Origin: Flavobacteriaceae bacterium
Lineage (GTDB): Bacteria; Bacteroidota; Bacteroidia; Flavobacteriales; Flavobacteriaceae
Length of the DNA: 36,602 bases
NCBI GenBank assembly: GCA_026988395.1
Contig: JALSLI010000167.1
Coordinates: 1 to 36,602, forward strand
Direction: 5' to 3'
The notes under the pieces are model-generated. The model searched no databases, was not told the origin of the DNA, and saw nothing but the letters and a program-made list of their open reading frames with translations. Positions 6,600 through 18,852 of this stretch are shown piece by piece. The number at the start of each line of letters is the position of its first letter. Position 1 is the stretch's first letter. The position numbers and the translations under genes were made by a program.

Positions 6600-9500
6600 T
6601 TAATATGTTAAACTAAAATGCCCTTTTCTGATAATTTGTTGCCCTTTATTGTCTAAAAAGGTAGCTACAAACCAATAATCTGTTGGCTGTGCCTGTTTAC
6701 CGAGATAAGTACCATCCCAACCTGCATCTACATTTGTAAATTGCGTTATCACCCTACCGTTTCTGTCAAAAATAGAAACCCCAATTAATTGATAGGCTTC
6801 ACTCCCTTTTATTTGCCATACATCGTTGAGTCCATCACCGTTTGGCGTAATAAATTTAGGAAAGCTAATTACCGGAACTTCGGCAGTAGTTTCTCCGCAA
6901 CCATTTATATCGATAATATGAACTATATGCAAACCTTCAGAAACATTATAAAATATATGACCGTCAGGTGCATTTGAAGTTTCAAAATTGCCATCATCCA
7001 AAACGTATTGGTAATTACCCAAACCTTCTACGATTATGGCTATCTGATTATTTGGTGCATTATCTTTTACTTTAATCACGCGTATTTTTGGTGTTTCGGA
7101 AGCGGTAACCATAAAGTTTTTGGTTCGCGAGCAACCTGTTCTATCTAACATTTTGGCTACAACCGAATAATTTCCGGGTTGTTGAATTTCTAAATAATCA
7201 TTTGCAGAATCTATAGTTATTTCATTACCATTTTTATCGTACCAATGATAGGCATAAATATCTGCTTGATTGGTAACTTGTGCAATTATCGGCTGGTTGT
7301 AATTAAGACAGATTTGTGTGTCTTCTATATCAAATTCCGGCAACGGATTTACCACAAACTCAATTGTGGTTTGGATATTACAAGTTGTATTATTTTCATT
7401 TTCCATAATTACCGTGATGGTTTGTGATGGTGTAATAAATGGATTTGGCAACGGACTTGCATTGCCTTCTTCATTAAAAATCTGTATTCCGTCTTCGTTA
7501 AAATACCTAAACTGCATTTCTAATTGCGAATTATTTCCGCCTAAAAAATGATATTCTACCAAAGATGTATCAAATTCGGCTTTACCATCGTGATTATCTG
7601 TTCCGTCATCACATTTTGGATCAAAAGTTACTTGATTTGCAAAATACGGCACAGCATCTACAATCATATTTAAAGTCGTTTCCGAACTGCAAGGACCTTC
7701 AGGATCGTTGGTTGTATCATTTTTGACAATGACTTGAATTGTTTGCGTTCCGGTAAGAAACGGATTTGGTAATGACGGCGAATAAGCTGTTCCATCTTCC
7801 AAAATATAAGTTAATGTTACGCCGGTTTGCCCTTGTAGAATTTCTTGATTATATGTTGAAGTATCAAATTGATAAGTACCGTTTATATCATCTGCACAAG
7901 TACGTTTGTCTTGTGGTTGATGTGCTACGGGAATTGGCTCTACCTGCAATTCTATATACAGATTTTCACCAAAACCTATACAGTCAATATTTAATGTGCT
8001 ATTAACACGAATGTATATTTTCTCGTAATAAGGCGAAGTAATGTTTCGATAATTAGAAATATTGGTAATTTCATTTTGTTGTAACAAACCATCTTGAATA
8101 TTATGGTAATAAGAAACACTTAAATCAGGTTGTTGAGCTGCAGGAAACAAATTAATCACCTCATTAGTAACACTATTAAAATCAAAAGTTGTAATGCCAT
8201 CTGTATCGTCATTATTTTGATTATCATTTCCGTTAAGGTCTAAAAAATCATCACATTTACCAAATAGTTTATAGTAGTTTGCACTTGTAGCAGTAACTAA
8301 AATATGAATAGTAGCTATTTGATAACAGCCATAAAAATTTTCTACTCTTGCATAAATATATCTGGTATTGGTACCAAAAACTGTGGGATTTGCAATTGGA
8401 TTAGTTCCTACATTAGCAGCTGAATTTCCTGTGTAATATGTAATTGTAACCGGAGACGTATCGGAATAAATAACTGAATCTAAATTGGTTAAATCGATAA
8501 AAGTATACCCATCGGTATCATCATCACATTGCTTTACTTCTATGTTGGAAACAACAGTAGGCAACTGGTGATAAGTCACTGTTGCTTCACCTCGCAAAGG
8601 GCAATCACCATTATTAAAATCAACTTTTAACACATATGTTCCATCTGCATAAGGCGTACTTTGATCAATATCTAAATAAGAGGTTGTAATTGGTATCACA
8701 TTTCCGTTTAAAGACCATTCATAAGTTGTTGTGGCAGGATAGGTTGAAGTGTCTGGCTGCAAACGATAGGTATCACCATCACAAAGATCTAAATCAGTAA
8801 TAATATCAGATGATGTGCTATCGATAATATTCAAATTTGCTATAAATAAAGATTGTATAAACGGAGGCAATCCTTGTGTAGAAGAACCTGTACCTAAACT
8901 AACGGAACGATGGCTGTAATTTACACTTGCACCCAAGTTTTCCGGATTATTGATAACACTAATCGTATTTGAACCGTCGCTCGCCCAATAAATTTTACCA
9001 TTAGAAGCTAATTGCAAAGCACCACGAGTATTAACATAACTATGCACTAAGTATCTGGAACTATTTATGGCGTTAAAATCGGGTAAATCCAAATTAAATT
9101 GATATAAATTTTCGGTAGCTCCTTGTTGATAACTTCCGGTACTAATATAAAGGCGTTTACTGTCTATAGAAAATTCAACGCCATAACCTTGATCTCCAGA
9201 TAAATTTAAACCATTTCCGTTAGATACTTGACCTGTAGTTACATCAAAATCATATAAAAAAGTACCACTTTGCATGTTTGCTGCTACCAATTTTGTACCA
9301 TTCGGTGAAACTTTCAAATATCCTCTTACATCACTTGTTGTATTGTTTACGGTAGAAATAACAGCAGAATTAGCAACACCGGTATTATCTACATAATAAG
9401 AATAAAATGTGTCATTTACCAAAGAAATCACCCAATATCCATTACATCCGTCGGCTTCAACAGCCGTAACTTTTTCAGTCCATTGACTACTTAAACCTCC

Positions 9501-9965
9501 GGATAAATTTACCGGTCCCGAGATTACATCGCCTAAACCGGAATCTGCACTCATATCTACTGTATAGTACTTAAAACCTGCATTTGGAGGAGAGCCAGCC
9601 GGAACAGCATTTGTACCAACTGTAAAAAGATAAAAAATATCCGGATTTCCGGGATTGGGTACAATTAAACCGGATTGTGTGCTGGAAGGGTTTCCTCCTA
9701 ATCCACCTCCGTTAGGCATAACTTGATGGTTTCTGTTATAAACTGTAACACCGTCTGTATAAAATAATAGATTTCCGTTTGCATCTGAAAAAGAAGAACA
9801 ACCTTCGGTTGTAGATAAAGCACTATTTGGTAAAGCAACCGGCGTTCCGGAACCAAAATTTAAACCTGCATGATTACCAAAAAACCAATTATCTGCTTGT
9901 CGTTGGGAGAAAACTATAGTTGTAATAAACAAACTTGTTATTAAAAGTGTGTAAATTTTATTCAT
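6600..9965 (-). CDS. Large T9SS type-B cargo protein with N-terminal propeller-like region and repeated extracellular domains
   Basis: Signal peptide, RQADNWFFGNHAGLNFGSGTPVAL N-terminus and C-terminal FPKFITPNGDGLNDVWQIKGSEAYQLIGVSIFDRNGRVITQF...WDGTYLGKQAQPTDYWF...KGHFSLTY. Confidence 0.93.
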   Translation of the reverse strand: MNKIYTLLITSLFITTIVFSQRQADNWFFGNHAGLNFGSGTPVALPNSALSTTEGCSSFSDANGNLLFYTDGVTVYNRNHQVMPNGGGLGGNPSSTQSGLIVPNPGNPDIFYLFTVGTNAVPAGSPPNAGFKYYTVDMSADSGLGDVISGPVNLSGGLSSQWTEKVTAVEADGCNGYWVISLVNDTFYSYYVDNTGVANSAVISTVNNTTSDVRGYLKVSPNGTKLVAANMQSGTFLYDFDVTTGQVSNGNGLNLSGDQGYGVEFSIDSKRLYISTGSYQQGATENLYQFNLDLPDFNAINSSRYLVHSYVNTRGALQLASNGKIYWASDGSNTISVINNPENLGASVNYSHRSVSLGTGSSTQGLPPFIQSLFIANLNIIDSTSSDIITDLDLCDGDTYRLQPDTSTYPATTTYEWSLNGNVIPITTSYLDIDQSTPYADGTYVLKVDFNNGDCPLRGEATVTYHQLPTVVSNIEVKQCDDDTDGYTFIDLTNLDSVIYSDTSPVTITYYTGNSAANVGTNPIANPTVFGTNTRYIYARVENFYGCYQIATIHILVTATSANYYKLFGKCDDFLDLNGNDNQNNDDTDGITTFDFNSVTNEVINLFPAAQQPDLSVSYYHNIQDGLLQQNEITNISNYRNITSPYYEKIYIRVNSTLNIDCIGFGENLYIELQVEPIPVAHQPQDKRTCADDINGTYQFDTSTYNQEILQGQTGVTLTYILEDGTAYSPSLPNPFLTGTQTIQVIVKNDTTNDPEGPCSSETTLNMIVDAVPYFANQVTFDPKCDDGTDNHDGKAEFDTSLVEYHFLGGNNSQLEMQFRYFNEDGIQIFNEEGNASPLPNPFITPSQTITVIMENENNTTCNIQTTIEFVVNPLPEFDIEDTQICLNYNQPIIAQVTNQADIYAYHWYDKNGNEITIDSANDYLEIQQPGNYSVVAKMLDRTGCSRTKNFMVTASETPKIRVIKVKDNAPNNQIAIIVEGLGNYQYVLDDGNFETSNAPDGHIFYNVSEGLHIVHIIDINGCGETTAEVPVISFPKFITPNGDGLNDVWQIKGSEAYQLIGVSIFDRNGRVITQFTNVDAGWDGTYLGKQAQPTDYWFVATFLDNKGQQIIRKGHFSLTY

Positions 9966-11908: not shown

Positions 11909-11916
11909 TTATTTTA

Positions 11917-11924
11917 TATATTTG
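11917..11924 (+). promoter_or_regulatory. Candidate -7 box TATATTTG of the trp operon promoter
   Basis: TAnnTTTG match just after the PNP stop codon and 10 nt before the leader-peptide ATG. Confidence 0.5.
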
Positions 11925-11934
11925 CTCCATAGTT

Positions 11935-12000
11935 ATGCAAAAAAACACATTAAATACAAATTGGTGGTGGTTACAATCTAATCTAAAGATCGTAATCTAA
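11935..12000 (+). CDS. Trp leader peptide (MQKNTLNTNWWWLQSNLKIVI*), attenuation peptide
   Basis: Short ORF missed by the ORF track: atg caa aaa aac aca tta aat aca aat tgg tgg tgg tta caa tct aat cta aag atc gta atc taa. It has three consecutive Trp codons (11962-11970), lies directly upstream of trpE and is followed by a terminator hairpin. Confidence 0.88.
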   Translation: MQKNTLNTNWWWLQSNLKIVI

Positions 12001-12039
12001 ATACCTTTGTATTAAATTTAAACCAATAAAATACATCTA

Positions 12040-12071
12040 AAAAAGGCTTGTCGATTACGACAAGCCTTTTT
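12040..12071 (+). terminator. Intrinsic terminator/attenuator hairpin upstream of trpE
   Basis: Perfect 14-bp inverted repeat AAAAAGGCTTGTCG-ATTA-CGACAAGCCTTTTT, the 3' arm ending in a T-tract followed by CTTTTT, 17 nt before the trpE ATG. Confidence 0.9.
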
Positions 12072-12088
12072 CTTTTTATACCATTTAT

Positions 12089-13483
12089 ATGAAAACAATT
12101 AAAATAAAAATCAACAGCAAAAAAATTCTATCAGATACAACAACTCCGGTTGCACTGTATCTAAATCTTAGAGATAAATTTAGTAAAAGTATTCTTTTAG
12201 AAAGCTCGGATTACCATGCAAATGACAACAACTTCTCTTTTATATGCTTAGAACCAATAGTAAGTTTTACGGTAACAAACCAAAAGGTTTCGATTAAAGG
12301 ATTAGAATTGGACAAAACCTATAAAATTTCAAAAGAAAAACCGGTTATCAAAATTTTACAAGATTTAATCAATTCTTTTGAAATAGACAAAATCGGATTT
12401 GTAAACGGTTTTTTCGGATATACAAATTATGATGCTATAAAATATTTTGAAGATATTAAAATCAATTCCAATAAGGATATAAAAAATAAAACTCCGGAAA
12501 TGCATTATGCATTTTTTAAATACATCATACAAATTGACCATTTTAAAAATGAAATGACCATTCTTGAAAATAATACCAAAAATGAAAAATCAAAATTAGA
12601 ATCAATCGTACGATTAGTGCAAAATACCGCTTATCCCTCCTATCATTTTAAAAGAAACGGTAAGGAAAAATCTACAATTACCGACAATGAATTTAAAGAC
12701 TATGTTAAAAAAGGCAAAAAACATTGTCAATTAGGAGATGTGTTTCAAATTGTACTATCCAGACAATTTTCTCAAAAATTTAAAGGTGATGATTTTAATG
12801 TTTATCGTGCTTTACGAGCTGTAAATCCTTCGCCATACTTATTTTATTTCGACTTTGGAAATTTTAAACTTTTCGGGTCTTCGCCGGAAGCACAATTAAA
12901 AGCATCAAATGGTAATGCTATCATTAATCCTATTGCTGGAACTTTTAAACGTACAGGAAACGACTTGGATGATAAAATTGCTGCCGAAAAATTAGCCAAA
13001 GATCCAAAAGAAAATGCCGAACACACAATGTTAGTAGATTTAGCTAGAAATGATTTAAGCAGACACGGAAATAATGTACAAGTAAAAGTATATAAAGAAA
13101 CCCAATTTTACAGTCATGTTATTCATTTGGTTTCCGAAGTGGAAGCAACTCTTAAAAATCCTGACGATGCTTTACAAGTCTTTGCAGATACTTTCCCGGC
13201 AGGAACACTTTCGGGAGCTCCAAAATATCGTGCTATGCAACTTATAGAAAAATACGAAAAACAACAACGCGGATTTTACGGTGGAGCTATTGGCTATTTC
13301 GGATTTGACAAAAGCGTAAATCACGCAATTACTATCCGTAGTTTTTTAAGTAAAAACAATACGCTTTTCTTTCAAGCAGGAGCCGGAATTGTGGTTACAT
13401 CAAATGAAGAAAACGAATTACAAGAAGTAAACAATAAATTAGGTGCTTTAAAGAAAGCATTGCAAATAGCAGAAACCATATAA
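12089..13483 (+). CDS. trpE: Anthranilate synthase component I
   Basis: GDVFQIVLSRQFSQKF, NPSPYLFYFDFGNFKLFGSSPEAQLK, PIAGTFKRTG, FPAGTLSGAPKYRAMQLIEKYE, RGFYGGAIGYFGFD, GAGIVVTSNEENE. Confidence 0.97.
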   Translation: MKTIKIKINSKKILSDTTTPVALYLNLRDKFSKSILLESSDYHANDNNFSFICLEPIVSFTVTNQKVSIKGLELDKTYKISKEKPVIKILQDLINSFEIDKIGFVNGFFGYTNYDAIKYFEDIKINSNKDIKNKTPEMHYAFFKYIIQIDHFKNEMTILENNTKNEKSKLESIVRLVQNTAYPSYHFKRNGKEKSTITDNEFKDYVKKGKKHCQLGDVFQIVLSRQFSQKFKGDDFNVYRALRAVNPSPYLFYFDFGNFKLFGSSPEAQLKASNGNAIINPIAGTFKRTGNDLDDKIAAEKLAKDPKENAEHTMLVDLARNDLSRHGNNVQVKVYKETQFYSHVIHLVSEVEATLKNPDDALQVFADTFPAGTLSGAPKYRAMQLIEKYEKQQRGFYGGAIGYFGFDKSVNHAITIRSFLSKNNTLFFQAGAGIVVTSNEENELQEVNNKLGALKKALQIAETI

Positions 13484-13484
13484 T

Positions 13485-14063
13485 ATGAAAGAAAAAGTAT
13501 TAATACTCGATAATTACGACTCATTTACATACAATATAGCACATTATGTAGATGAAAATCCAAATTATAAAGCCATTGTTATAAGAAATGATGCCATTAC
13601 ATTAGAAGAAGTAAATAAATTTAACACCATAATTTTATCTCCGGGTCCCGGTCTTCCAAAAGATGCCGGAATTACGAATGCTCTTATAAAAAAATATGCT
13701 TCAACTAAAAAAATTCTTGGCGTCTGCCTTGGTATGCAAGCAATTGGTGAGGTGTTTGGTGGAAAATTAAAAAATATGGAAACCGTTTATCACGGAGTAG
13801 CTTCTCCAATAAAAATATCCGAAAAAAATACAATTATCTATAAAGGATTGCCAAACTCTTTTATGGTAGGAAGATATCACAGTTGGATTATCCATAAAAA
13901 ATCTTTTCCGGATATATTAAAAATTACAGCCCAAACCAAACAAGACGAAATTATGTCTATAAAACATAAAGAATATGCTGTTTTTGGCGTGCAATACCAT
14001 CCGGAATCTATCTTAACAGAATATGGAAAAGAAATCATTTCCAATTTTTTAAACCATAAATAA
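13485..14063 (+). CDS. trpG: Anthranilate synthase component II (glutamine amidotransferase)
   Basis: ILDNYDSFTYNIAHY, LSPGPGLPKDAG, LGVCLGMQAIGEVFGG, FGVQYHPESILTEYG. Confidence 0.97.
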   Translation: MKEKVLILDNYDSFTYNIAHYVDENPNYKAIVIRNDAITLEEVNKFNTIILSPGPGLPKDAGITNALIKKYASTKKILGVCLGMQAIGEVFGGKLKNMETVYHGVASPIKISEKNTIIYKGLPNSFMVGRYHSWIIHKKSFPDILKITAQTKQDEIMSIKHKEYAVFGVQYHPESILTEYGKEIISNFLNHK

Positions 14064-14253
14064 AATGAAACATTCATGATTAATTTTTAAACACACAGCG
14101 GAATGATTATAATATTGCAATAAATGAAAGGTGAAAGACACAGAATATAGAAAATAACATTTTTTAAAACACTAATTATAATACAAGTACAAAATATAAT
14201 TGTAAACAAGTGAAATCAAAAAAGATAAATATCCCTTCAAAGACAAACGAAAC

Positions 14254-14347
14254 TCCCCTCTTGAGAGGGGGCGGGGGTGTGTCTATTGAAAAAAAGAAAC
14301 GTTTCAATTAAAATATGAACACACCCCTAACCCCTCTCAAGAGGGGA
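14254..14347. repeat. REPIN/MITE-like nested inverted repeat inside the trp operon (trpG-trpD gap)
   Basis: 29-nt terminal arms TCCCCTCTTGAGAGGGGGCGGGGGTGTGT (14254-14282) and ACACACCCCTAACCCCTCTCAAGAGGGGA (14319-14347), 26/29 complementary. Each arm is itself a hairpin (CCCCTC/GAGGGG) and the interior holds the palindrome GAAACGTTTC. Confidence 0.85.
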
Positions 14348-14511
14348 ATAATGTACCAATTGAGGTAATTTTACTTTATTAATCTTGTATATAGATGCAT
14401 CATATATAAATCAGTACTTTTTTAAAACAAATGCGTTAAAATAAGAAAATGAAAAATAAGTGCAAATTTTATAAACCACTTATTATGAGTATAAAACAAA
14501 ATTATAAACAG

Positions 14512-15507
14512 ATGAAAAAAATATTAAACCAACTTTTTGAACAACAAAAATTATCGGAAAAAGATGCCTATTCTATTTTACTTAGAATTGGAAAAGGCGA
14601 ATTTAATCCGGCACAAATAGCGGCATTTTTAACCGTTTACTTAATGCGAAAAATATCGGTAAATGAACTAAAAGGATTTCAAAAAGCATTGTTAGACTTG
14701 TGTATTCCCATAGATTTATCCGATTTTAATACCATAGATTTATGTGGTACCGGCGGCGATGGAAAAAACACGTTTAACATATCAACGCTTTCTTCCTTTG
14801 TAGTTGGCGGTGCCGGTTATAAGGTTGCTAAACACGGCAACTACGGTGTTTCTTCCTCTTGCGGTTCTTCAAACGTATTAGAATATTTAGGCTATACTTT
14901 TACTAATGATAATGAAACGCTAAAAAGACAATTAGACACTGCTAATTTCTGTATGATGCACGCTCCACTTTTTCATCCTGCCATGAAAAATGTAGCTCCA
15001 ATTAGACGCGAACTAGGTGTGAAAACATTTTTTAATATGTTAGGTCCAATTGTAAATCCAAGTCTTCCAAAAAGCCAATTAACCGGTGTTTTTAATTTGG
15101 AAATCGCTCGAATTTACAATTATCTTCTGCAAGATTCTAATAAAAATTACACCATTTTACATAGCCTAGATGGTTATGATGAAATTTCGTTAACCGGTGA
15201 TTTTAAAGTAATTTCTTCCGTTAACGGAGAAGAATTATTAGCACCACATAATATTGGCTTTCAAAAAATTACAGCAAACTCTATCTATGGAGGTGAAACC
15301 ATAGCAGATGCTGCAAAAATATTTGTAAATATTTTACAAAATAAAGGAACAGAAGCTCAAAATAATGTGGTAATTGCAAATGCATCTTATGCCATTAAAA
15401 CCATAGATTCCGCTTTATCTTATGAAGATTGCAAGGAAATAGCAAAACGTTCAATCATTGAAGGAAAAGCATATAAAGCACTTAAAAAAGTAACCGAAAT
15501 AAAATAA
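14512..15507 (+). CDS. trpD: Anthranilate phosphoribosyltransferase
   Basis: LCGTGGDGKNTFNISTLSSFVVGGAGYKVAKHGNYGVSSSCGSSNVLEYLG. Start placed at MKKILNQLFEQQKLS (14512) rather than 14449 by family N-terminus. Confidence 0.96.
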   Translation: MKKILNQLFEQQKLSEKDAYSILLRIGKGEFNPAQIAAFLTVYLMRKISVNELKGFQKALLDLCIPIDLSDFNTIDLCGTGGDGKNTFNISTLSSFVVGGAGYKVAKHGNYGVSSSCGSSNVLEYLGYTFTNDNETLKRQLDTANFCMMHAPLFHPAMKNVAPIRRELGVKTFFNMLGPIVNPSLPKSQLTGVFNLEIARIYNYLLQDSNKNYTILHSLDGYDEISLTGDFKVISSVNGEELLAPHNIGFQKITANSIYGGETIADAAKIFVNILQNKGTEAQNNVVIANASYAIKTIDSALSYEDCKEIAKRSIIEGKAYKALKKVTEIK

Positions 15508-15509
15508 AA

Positions 15510-16283
15510 ATGACAATATTAGAACAAATAACAGCCTATAAACGCTCAGAAATAAACGAATTAAAAGAAAAAATACCTATTGAAGTTTTAAAAAATCAGG
15601 CTCTTTTTAATCGGAAAACATTTTCTTTAAAAAAGGCAATTAAAGAAAAAACAGGAATAATAGCCGAATTTAAACGAAAATCGCCTTCCAAAGGAATTAT
15701 TAACGATATTGCTAAAGTAAAAGATGTTGTTTTAGGCTATGAAAAATGTGGTGTTTCCGGAATTTCAATATTAACAGATTCTTATTTTTTTGGTGGTTCT
15801 AATGAAGATTTATTTCAAGCAAGAGCAAACGTTAACACACCTATATTACGAAAAGATTTTACCATTTCTACCTATCAAATCTACGAAGCAAAAGCAATTG
15901 GTGCAGATGCTATTTTACTCATTGCTTCCATTTTAACAAAGCAAGAAATTATTGACTTTACAGACCTAGCCCATCAACTGGATTTAGAAGTGTTATTAGA
16001 AATACACAACGAAAAAGAATTGGAAAAATATTACCAAAAGGTCGATTTAATAGGAATTAACAATCGGAACTTAAAAACCTTTAAAGTAGATTTTGAGCAT
16101 GCTGTAAATTTAAGTAAAAAACTACCAAAAGAAAGTATTAAAATTGCCGAAAGTGGTATAAAGACTGCCAAAGACATTCAGTTATTAAAATCAAAAGGCT
16201 TTAATGGATTTTTAATTGGTGAATCCTTTATGAAAACTAAAAATCCTGCTCTTGCTTGTTCTAAATTCACTAAAAAGTTATGA
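15510..16283 (+). CDS. trpC: Indole-3-glycerol phosphate synthase
   Basis: IIAEFKRKSPSKGIIN, ISILTDSYFFGGS, LRKDFTI, GADAILLIASIL, IGINNRNLKTFKVD, AESGIK, GFLIGESFM. Confidence 0.97.
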   Translation: MTILEQITAYKRSEINELKEKIPIEVLKNQALFNRKTFSLKKAIKEKTGIIAEFKRKSPSKGIINDIAKVKDVVLGYEKCGVSGISILTDSYFFGGSNEDLFQARANVNTPILRKDFTISTYQIYEAKAIGADAILLIASILTKQEIIDFTDLAHQLDLEVLLEIHNEKELEKYYQKVDLIGINNRNLKTFKVDFEHAVNLSKKLPKESIKIAESGIKTAKDIQLLKSKGFNGFLIGESFMKTKNPALACSKFTKKL

Positions 16284-16897
16284 ACTTAAAAATAAAAGTT
16301 TGCGGTATGCGAGAAACCGAAAACATAAAAGAATTAATTTTGTTAAAACCGGATTTCATCGGATTTATTTTTCATGAAAAATCCACAAGAAATATTACGG
16401 AAATTCCAAAAATAACAATTCCAAAAACCATTAAAAAAGTAGGTGTTTTTGTAGATAAACCGATGGATTATATTTTGGATAAAAATCATAAATTTCAATT
16501 GAATTTTGTGCAATTACACGGTAATGAATCACCTGAATTCTGCAAAAAATTACACCAAAAAAAAATCAATATCATAAAAGCATTTAATATAGACCAAACA
16601 TTTGATTTTAATACATTAGAAAATTACAAAACGTATTGCTCCTACTTTCTTTTTGATGCCAAAGGAAAGATGGCAGGCGGAAACGGCATTACCTTTAATT
16701 GGAATCTATTACACAAATACCAAAATAAAACACCTTTTTTATTAAGCGGAGGTATCGATGAAACGATGATAAATAAAATCAAAAATTTGAAACATCCACA
16801 ATTTAAAGGCATCGACATTAATAGTAAATTTGAAATAAAACCGGCTTTTAAAAACATTAACAAAATTAAAAAATTAATAACCGAAATAAAAAAATAA
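16280..16897 (+). CDS. trpF: Phosphoribosylanthranilate isomerase
   Basis: KVCGMRETENI, DFIGFIFHEKSTR, VGVFVDKP, VQLHGNESPEFC, FLLSGGIDE, GIDINSKFEIKPAFK. Confidence 0.95.
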   Translation: MNLKIKVCGMRETENIKELILLKPDFIGFIFHEKSTRNITEIPKITIPKTIKKVGVFVDKPMDYILDKNHKFQLNFVQLHGNESPEFCKKLHQKKINIIKAFNIDQTFDFNTLENYKTYCSYFLFDAKGKMAGGNGITFNWNLLHKYQNKTPFLLSGGIDETMINKIKNLKHPQFKGIDINSKFEIKPAFKNINKIKKLITEIKK

Positions 16898-16899
16898 AC

Positions 16900-18081
16900 A
16901 TGAATTACACAGTAGATAAAAACGGATTTTACGGCGGATTTGGCGGAGCCTTTGTGCCGGAAATGCTTTACCACAACGTAAAAGAACTTCAAGATAATTA
17001 TATAAAAATAATCGAATCACAAGTATTTCAAAAAGAATTTAAAGCTTTACTAAAAGATTATGTTGGCAGACCAACTCCTTTGTATTTTGCAAAACGCCTA
17101 TCCAAAAAATATCAAACGAATATTTTTTTAAAACGCGAAGATTTAAACCATACCGGAGCACATAAAATAAACAATACCATTGGTCAAATTCTCATAGCAA
17201 AACACATGGGTAAAAAACGAATTATTGCCGAAACCGGAGCTGGACAACACGGCGTTGCAACAGCTACAGTTTGTGCTTTAATGGGTTTGGAATGTATTGT
17301 ATATATGGGAGAAATTGATATTAACAGGCAAGCACCAAATGTTGCAAGAATGCAAATGTTGGGTGCCGAAGTCCGACCTGCAAAATCCGGCAGTAAAACG
17401 CTAAAAGATGCTACCAACGAAGCTATTTATGATTGGATTGCCAATCCGGAAAACACTTATTACCTTATTGGTTCTGTTGTAGGACCACATCCTTATCCGG
17501 ATATGGTAGCTCGTTTTCAGTCTATTATCAGCAAAGAAATGAAAACACAATTACAAGAAAAAACAGGTAGAGATTATCCTGATAAAATTATCGCTTGTGT
17601 TGGTGGCGGTTCTAACGCCGCAGGAGCATTTTACCATTATCTAAACAATAAAAAAGTAACACTTATTGCTGTGGAAGCTGATGGTTTAGGAGCCAAAACC
17701 AATAAAACAGCAGCAACCACACAAGTTGGCACAAAAGGCATCATACATGGTAGTTTAACGTATTTAATGCAAAATAAAGAAGGACAAATCACCGAACCTT
17801 ATTCCATTTCCGCAGGATTAGATTATCCTGGAATAGGACCTTTACACGCACATTTGTTTTTTTCAAAAAGAGCAACTTTTTTAGGAGCTACCGATAATGA
17901 AGCAGTTGAGGCTGCTTTTGAACTCACGCAATTAGAAGGCATAATTCCTGCTCTTGAATCTGCCCATGCATTGGCCGCTCTTAAAAAAATTGAGTTAAAT
18001 AAAAATGAAAATATAGTAATTAACCTTTCGGGAAGAGGTGATAAAGATTTGACAACTTATATTAAAATTCTAAAAAAATAA
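16900..18081 (+). CDS. trpB: Tryptophan synthase beta chain
   Basis: GFYGGFGGAFVPEML, GRPTPLYFAKRLS, LKREDLNHTGAHKINN, ETGAGQHGVATATVCAL, CVGGGSNAAGAFYHY, NLSGRGDKDLTTY. Confidence 0.98.
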   Translation: MNYTVDKNGFYGGFGGAFVPEMLYHNVKELQDNYIKIIESQVFQKEFKALLKDYVGRPTPLYFAKRLSKKYQTNIFLKREDLNHTGAHKINNTIGQILIAKHMGKKRIIAETGAGQHGVATATVCALMGLECIVYMGEIDINRQAPNVARMQMLGAEVRPAKSGSKTLKDATNEAIYDWIANPENTYYLIGSVVGPHPYPDMVARFQSIISKEMKTQLQEKTGRDYPDKIIACVGGGSNAAGAFYHYLNNKKVTLIAVEADGLGAKTNKTAATTQVGTKGIIHGSLTYLMQNKEGQITEPYSISAGLDYPGIGPLHAHLFFSKRATFLGATDNEAVEAAFELTQLEGIIPALESAHALAALKKIELNKNENIVINLSGRGDKDLTTYIKILKK

Positions 18082-18090
18082 ATTCTGAAA

Positions 18091-18852
18091 ATGAAAAATA
18101 CATTCAAAAAAAATAACATCCTAAATATTTATATAACAGCAGGATTTCCTAAATTAAATGACACTGTAGAGATTGTAAATGAATTGGCTAAGAACAATGT
18201 AGATATTATTGAAATAGGCATGCCTTTTTCAGATCCTTTAGCAGATGGACCAACCATACAGAACAGTAGTAAAAAAGCAATTGAAAACGGTATTACAATC
18301 ACTAAAATTTTTGAACAGATTAAAGAAATTAGAAAATCAACAGATATACCAATTTTATTAATGGGTTATTACAACCAATTGTTACAATACGGAACCGAAA
18401 AATTCTTTAACAAAGCAAAAGAAGTTGGCGTAAACGGCTTTATTATTCCGGATTTACCCTTAGATATTTACCAAAAAAAACTCCAAACATTAGTAAATAA
18501 TTTAGGATTAAATATGATTTTTCTTATCACGCCACAAACAACAAATGAACGAATTATGGCAATTGATAATACCACTTCCGGATTTATTTACGTTGTTTCT
18601 TCGTATAGCATTACGGGTGGCAGTAATGAAATAAGCAAAAAACAAATTAATTATTTTGAAAGAATTAAAAAGATGAATTTAAAAAATCCAACTTTAATAG
18701 GATTTGGTATTCACAATAAAAAAACTTTTGATACTGCTTGTAAATACACCAACGGAGCAATCATTGGCAGTGCCTTTATTAAAGAAATAGGAAAATCCGG
18801 CGATTATCAAAAAACCATTTCAAATTTTATTAAAAACATTCGAAAAGGGTAA
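18091..18852 (+). CDS. trpA: Tryptophan synthase alpha chain
   Basis: YITAGFPKLNDTVEIV, IEIGMPFSDPLADGPTIQNSS, LLMGYYNQLLQYG, GFIIPDLPLD, GFGIHNKKTFD, GAIIGSAFIKEI. Confidence 0.97.
   Translation: MKNTFKKNNILNIYITAGFPKLNDTVEIVNELAKNNVDIIEIGMPFSDPLADGPTIQNSSKKAIENGITITKIFEQIKEIRKSTDIPILLMGYYNQLLQYGTEKFFNKAKEVGVNGFIIPDLPLDIYQKKLQTLVNNLGLNMIFLITPQTTNERIMAIDNTTSGFIYVVSSYSITGGSNEISKKQINYFERIKKMNLKNPTLIGFGIHNKKTFDTACKYTNGAIIGSAFIKEIGKSGDYQKTISNFIKNIRKG

Follow-up and report, generated by a model that had tools for sequence, protein, structure and literature searches.

A trp operon preceded by a tryptophan-rich leader

The window examined in the current study, i.e. the entire 36,602-nt stretch of DNA that was analysed, contains seven consecutive plus-strand ORFs whose matches to NCBIfam models identify them as the genes of a trpE-trpG-trpD-trpC-trpF-trpB-trpA operon. 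For trpE and trpF, the best match is the named enzyme, with a score below the curated equivalog cut-off. The first gene of the operon, trpE (12089-13483, plus strand), has flavobacterial proteins as its closest named relatives and begins 17 nt past the stem of an intrinsic terminator that is followed by CTTTTT, and the gene upstream of the leader matches an NCBIfam model for purine-nucleoside phosphorylase. The leader region and the operon comprise the following features:

11915-12052, plus strand: match to the Rfam covariance model RF01692 (Bacteroid-trp), model positions 1-131 of 131
11917-11924, plus strand: Bacteroidota -7 promoter element TATATTTG (TAnnTTTG), read from the sequence, with the same element in relatives
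11935-12000, plus strand: trpL-like leader ORF of 21 codons encoding MQKNTLNTNWWWLQSNLKIVI, with ATG at 11935 and TAA at 11998-12000
11953-11966, plus strand: segment 1, 5' arm of the 1:2 protector hairpin, paired with 12002-12013 in the minimum free energy (MFE) structure
11962-11970, plus strand: putative regulatory Trp codons, three consecutive TGG in the sequence
11990-11997, plus strand: element L, TCGTAATC, in the last leader codons beside the stop, complementary to the apex at 12053-12060
12002-12013, plus strand: segment 2, 3' arm of the 1:2 hairpin and potential 5' arm of a 2:3 hairpin (MFE, swap test)
12030-12046, plus strand: segment 3, the pre-terminator AATACA and the AAGG of the terminator 5' arm, a potential partner of segment 2
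12040-12071, plus strand: intrinsic terminator, a perfect 14-bp stem (12040-12053 with 12058-12071), loop ATTA, then CTTTTT (sequence, MFE)
12053-12060, plus strand: terminator apex GATTACGA, i.e. the last 5'-arm base, the loop and the first three 3'-arm bases, able to pair with element L
12089-18852, plus strand: the trp operon, seven consecutive ORFs identified with NCBIfam models

A preliminary description of this DNA had placed a 21-codon ORF, its WWW run (11962-11970) and the terminator (12040-12071, 17 nt from trpE) exactly to the base. A chance ORF is ruled out as its explanation, both by its uniqueness as the sole WWW-containing short ORF on the two strands of the 36.6-kb window and by shuffling, since the 180-nt upstream region was dinucleotide-shuffled 2000 times without producing a short ORF with even a WW pair.

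The putative promoter lies very close to the leader. In F. psychrophilum and F. johnsoniae, TAnnTTTG occupies positions -12 to -5 relative to the transcription start site (TSS) (PMC9723704; PMC6847099), and it was found upstream of the leader ATG in 161 of the 175 leaders that we parsed for comparison. At the focal leader, the TSS is accordingly expected at ~11929, which would leave a 5' UTR of ~6 nt. When 5' UTR length is estimated from the position of the promoter element in this way (the gap from TAnnTTTG to the ATG minus four), it is ≤8 nt in 83 of the 161 leaders, and 12 leaders would be exactly leaderless. The genome-wide median 5' UTR of F. psychrophilum is 24 nt (PMC9723704).

The leader belongs to the Bacteroid-trp family

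The element had initially been regarded as unannotated and its sequence as unrelated. Both statements were mistaken, as a cmscan search matched it to RF01692 at 52.9 bits, above the gathering score of 49, and this is the sole gathering-level Rfam match in the whole window. The RF01692 model starts upstream of the predicted TSS, covers a 1:2-type hairpin, and ends within the 5' arm of the terminator. Besides its score over the full model, the focal element shares with Bacteroid-trp RNAs its place upstream of trpEGDCFBA and a Trp-rich ORF that has consecutive Trp codons and lies ahead of a terminator. Its presumed novelty likewise does not hold. Weinberg et al. predicted Bacteroid-trp in 2010 and listed it as an RNA of Bacteroidetes with a likely cis-regulatory role (PMC2864571), a study of F. 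psychrophilum had already likened it to the trp leader of E. coli (PMC6414381), and a flavobacterial transcriptome reported "strong clues" for leader-peptide attenuation before amino acid operons (PMC9723704). The focal element is neither an unannotated kind of element nor a new principle, but an ordinary locus of a known family.

Amongst 201 genomes of the same taxonomic family (one per genus), 144 contain an RF01692 match at E ≤ 0.001. As an approach independent of the Rfam model, 49 trpE genes were gathered by protein similarity, and 40 of these are preceded by a WW or WWW leader with a terminator, the failures including both proteobacterial genes. Within the genus of the window itself, only two of six genomes have an RF01692 match at E ≤ 0.001, yet wherever the sequence upstream of a trpE copy of this genus could be read, it contained a WW or WWW leader. 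Those of three genomes (G001, G002, and G004; leaders L029, L065, and L066) are clear in the sequence and missed by RF01692. A missing match should therefore not be equated with a missing element, as same-genus leaders exist even though the model misses most of them; RF01692 under-calls divergent members of its family.

Across the 175 parsed leaders, the Trp run comprises three codons in 160 and two in 15, and the pairs of the terminator stem are largely retained with compensatory changes (171 leaders). The alignment of relatives that had been suggested as a check thus shows a conserved WW/WWW leader and terminator together with co-varying stems, and the conserved leader, Trp codons, and terminator strongly support the originally proposed ribosome-mediated attenuation at Trp codons, which outranks the other explanations by a wide margin. 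They also bear upon the notion that the short ORF and terminator are constitutive and do not respond to Trp, for example boosting reinitiation or giving rise to an sRNA. Terminated leaders can indeed act in trans, as exemplified by rnTrpL of S. meliloti (PMC7298713). However, two or three Trp codons are near-universal before trpE and His runs occur before hisG, a pattern that only amino acid sensing would explain, so we consider a constitutive element extremely improbable.

Co-varying contacts within the leader

The leader region folds far more stably than expected from its composition, with an MFE of -37.2 kcal/mol where shuffled sequences average -15.95 (z -6.8). Of the three alternative pairings drawn by hand in the preliminary description, the 1:2 hairpin is present in the MFE structure and co-varies, with segment 1 fitting its own segment 2 better than swapped ones (p = 2e-4). 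The stretch past the Trp codons gives the same value with L (p = 2e-4, swap test) and forms the inner part of this protector hairpin.

The pairing that had been proposed as the main antiterminator, 2:3, fared less well. It can form in the focal leader (-2.9 kcal/mol), so the sequence pairing itself stands, but its comparative support is weak: own versus swapped partners differ at p = 0.026, the local hairpin has a mean z of -0.47, and conserved pairs are few (45.5% and 55.3%) in an AU-rich region that aligns poorly. The swap test is blind to pairings that never vary, and 2:3 is thus unsupported by it rather than excluded. As a sole antiterminator, 2:3 was rejected, due to its weak own-versus-swapped signal and the lack of any excess stability in the local hairpin.

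It is instead the contact listed second in the preliminary description, 11990-11997 with 12053-12060, that emerged as the best-supported alternative helix. Element L (TCGTAATC) and the apex (GATTACGA) form a perfect 8-bp duplex of -5.9 kcal/mol in the focal leader. Across the family, the L motif, typically TTCGTGAA or TCGTGA, reads as the reverse complement of the loop together with the first 3'-arm bases of the terminator, and it sits near the leader stop independently of the reading frame. It may precede, span, or follow the stop codon, yet its distance to the last Trp codon stays at ~17 nt throughout, and this constancy despite a shifting stop points to selection on the nucleotides rather than on the peptide. 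L has changed along with the terminator loop wherever the latter is unrelated in sequence, as in leaders L203 (GGGATTCTG with CAGAGTCCC) and L211 (GGATTCAG with CTGAATCC). Further co-changed examples are L153 (TTGTCGCAAT with ATTGCGACAA) and L062 (GAGAAGC with GCTTCTC).

This co-variation is also evident statistically. In the 37 leaders whose apexes are divergent, i.e. lack the common TCAC, L pairs with its own apex at -10.8 kcal/mol versus -7.1 kcal/mol with swapped ones (p = 5e-5; 0/20000 permutations reached the observed value). The test depends upon sequence diversity among the leaders: reduced to 32 or to 8 non-redundant leaders, it gave p = 5e-5 and p = 1e-4, respectively, and the strictest non-redundancy gave p = 0.17 with three leaders only, which carries no power. 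In a 10-nt sliding window, the own-minus-swapped signal appears only ~12-22 nt past the last Trp codon, with a sharp maximum at 16-18 nt (-7.1 vs -3.4). In a MAFFT alignment built without structure, 81.1% of the cells in the eight L:apex column pairs are standard pairs, compared to 20.6-49.9% in six slid registers, with the outermost two pairs being variable (99/153 and 29/129). Several distant leaders, such as L060, L063, L214, and L218, have a weak L signal or none. The complementarity and position of L, like the leader, the terminator, and the 1:2 pairing, are thereby established by comparison and computation.

L and the apex also constitute inverted repeats, with the typical motif TTCGTGAA of the family being close to a palindrome on its own, as might be expected if a DNA-binding repressor recognized the site. 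A repressor on this repeat, or another sensor such as a T-box tRNA-sensing element or TRAP, is nonetheless very improbable. Non-Watson-Crick cells of the L:apex helix comprise 27 G-U versus 12 A-C, an excess that favours RNA pairing on the transcribed strand, although the register was picked by best score and this pair-type table is descriptive only; the persistence of complementarity through unrelated sequences likewise indicates RNA pairing. A T-box or any other catalogued riboswitch was rejected, as RF01692 alone reaches the Rfam threshold anywhere in the window. A TRAP-type attenuator was rejected because it would call for ~7-11 closely spaced (G/U)AG triplets, and a lone UAG is the only one in the leader RNA before the terminator (11929-12039), where GAG is absent. 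All of these sensors would leave the Trp codons unexplained.

The literature that we searched, which did not extend to supplements (including that of Weinberg et al. 2010) or subscription papers, yielded no description of the L:apex contact, and the RF01692 model includes neither the terminator loop and 3' arm nor the L:apex helix. Within a family of switches that was already catalogued, the comparison of 175 relatives brought to light a conserved, co-varying contact between leader end and terminator tip that is absent from the Rfam entry.

Folding with a ribosome on the leader

Constrained folding, which had been suggested as a further check, was performed with a masked ribosome assumed to cover ~13 nt downstream of the A-site codon start and 18 nt upstream. 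The alternative helices do switch with ribosome position while the terminator emerges. When the Trp codons of the focal leader are occupied by a ribosome and the RNA is exposed to 12060, L:apex forms with P 0.94-0.96 and encloses a nested 2:3 hairpin of P 0.91; 2:3 has P 0.84-0.91 over transcript ends from 12050 to 12060. When the ribosome is at the stop, the probability of L:apex falls to 0.0 and the terminator forms as soon as the RNA is free up to 12064. If the ribosome is left out, L is partly sequestered by the 1:2 hairpin (P 0.92). The same pattern extends to 173 leaders. With the transcript three bases past the loop, L:apex is present in 99% of leaders stalled at the third Trp codon versus 3% of those at the stop, and with half of the 3' arm exposed, the mean terminator P is 0.25 when stalled versus 0.93 at the stop.

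At full length, however, the terminator is the equilibrium fold in all ribosome states (focal P 0.96; family mean 0.94-0.96). Equilibrium folding consequently fails as the cause of switching, and the preliminary description, which had weighed competing helices without considering kinetics, fell short on this point. Because the full-length terminator wins in every state, we infer that antitermination must be kinetic and co-transcriptional.

A candidate kinetic attenuator

Based upon these features, the best explanation of the locus, and a probable one in our judgement, is a ribosome-mediated transcription attenuator of the trp operon that belongs to the Bacteroid-trp family and is wired through L:apex, a reading that draws upon sequence comparison and modeled folds. 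Only ~6 nt would separate the transcription start from the leader ATG, and ribosome loading would be immediate, without a Shine-Dalgarno sequence; to our knowledge, Bacteroidota is a phylum without such sequences. When charged tRNA-Trp is scarce, the ribosome would stall on the three TGG codons and open the 1:2 hairpin, leaving L (11990-11997) exposed just past its edge. As the apex (12053-12060) emerges, it would be captured by L, with the weak 2:3 hairpin enclosed, and L:apex, perhaps together with 2:3, would delay closure of the terminator until the polymerase clears the U-tract, thus permitting readthrough. When Trp is plentiful, the ribosome would proceed to the stop and cover L, such that the terminator forms and trpE is off. 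If no ribosome is present, L would be partly sequestered in the 1:2 hairpin and the terminator would presumably form as well.

Two other wirings of the same attenuator have to be considered. In the first, the arrangement is of the classical E. coli type, with 2:3 (12004-12013 with 12030-12046) acting as antiterminator and L:apex being minor or accessory. Such a role for 2:3 would be consistent with its appearance in stalled folds before the apex emerges (P 0.84-0.86 at transcript end 12050) and with its predicted occupation of the base of the terminator 5' arm. Since comparison favours L:apex far more strongly than 2:3 (p 0.026, mean z -0.47, pairs 45.5%/55.3%), this wiring seems quite unlikely. 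In the second, L:apex would not compete with the terminator at all, but would form a pseudoknot upon the completed hairpin, which it might stabilise or weaken, or by which it might pace the polymerase. As the contact takes up the loop and only the top three base pairs, the remaining 11 bp of the stem might stay closed, and coexistence as a pseudoknot is possible in principle. We nevertheless regard a pseudoknot as unlikely, as three observations match the behavior expected of a competitor: 1) the helix takes in the first 3'-arm bases in most relatives, 2) the partner in his leaders is the 5' arm plus loop, and 3) the position of L leaves it free only while the ribosome stalls at Trp, which is the state in which readthrough is expected.

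Should the L:apex wiring be correct, the family-wide helix may matter as a concrete candidate antiterminator for Bacteroid-trp RNAs. Moreover, a conserved ribosome-mediated attenuation implies that in these leaders the ribosome follows close behind RNA polymerase.

Parallels in other leaders and known attenuators

In the E. coli trpL leader, segment 2, which follows the stop codon, pairs with the 5' arm of the terminator. The current leaders are similar in their Trp codons, in having a terminator-competing strand beside the leader stop, and in the apparent use of ribosome position as the switch. They differ in that L pairs mainly with the loop and the start of the 3' arm, in their near-leaderless start with no Shine-Dalgarno sequence, and in the absence of detectable homology. 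By analogy, L is best regarded as the positional counterpart of the E. coli segment 2, with another target in the trp leaders. The trpL/rnTrpL leader of Sinorhizobium meliloti is also a Trp attenuator, with a leader ORF that begins directly at the transcript 5' end or beside it, but it is alphaproteobacterial, unrelated in sequence, and acts in trans after termination (PMC7298713).

A closer parallel is found upstream of hisG. All 22 relatives having hisG encode a His-rich leader followed by a terminator (L228-L249), and what follows the His codons is able to pair with the 5' arm and loop of the terminator. This contact likewise favours its own partner over swapped ones (-9.1 vs -7.2 kcal/mol, p = 5e-5), with a peak 11-13 nt past the His run. 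The hisG leaders therefore share with the trp leaders a leader peptide, a terminator, and an element in the stop region complementary to the apex; they differ in their His codons and in that L pairs with the 5' arm and loop rather than with the loop and 3' arm. The his-leader L resembles a classical antiterminator strand. In F. psychrophilum, the leaders of hisG and other amino acid operons were described as structured 5' elements without Rfam matches (PMC9723704).

L:apex thus suggests a design common to the trp leaders and the flavobacterial hisG leaders. In its broadest form, the proposal would be that the attenuators of at least the trp and his operons of Bacteroidota share a design that has not been described, whereby an L-like element, located around the leader stop at a fixed distance past the stalled ribosome, pairs with the nascent terminator apex and serves as a purely kinetic, co-transcriptional antiterminator that is masked by the terminating ribosome, all upon near-leaderless transcripts lacking Shine-Dalgarno sequences. 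We consider the chances of this general proposal to be evenly balanced.

Leader ORFs rich in Ile, Val, and Leu were also observed upstream of ilvD (L251, L253, L257, L259, L264, L266, and L268). Their terminators are of the form GCCTTCC...GGAAGGC, and by eye their stop regions look complementary to the loop (TAGGAA/TTCCTA in L268). In the genus of the window, whose six genomes are 70-94% complete, hisG had no match in any genome (G000-G005) and ilvD was found in one, even though the window carries the trp operon, which suggests either His and branched-chain auxotrophy or missing parts of the assemblies.

Additional features of the window

Within the operon, trpG and trpD are separated by a 385-nt gap (14064-14448) that holds two CCCCTCTTGAGAGGGG palindromes (14255-14270 and 14331-14346) bracketing an inverted repeat that resembles GGGGGTGTGT...ACACACCCC. 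The 16-mer has 29 strand-counted matches in the assembly at ≤1 mismatch, versus 0 for a reversed control, and the palindromes and inverted repeat are probably a small mobile repeat. Upstream of the leader, the minus strand at 6600-9965 encodes a 1121-aa predicted secreted protein, the C-terminal end of which looks by eye like the domains of gliding/T9SS cargo proteins.
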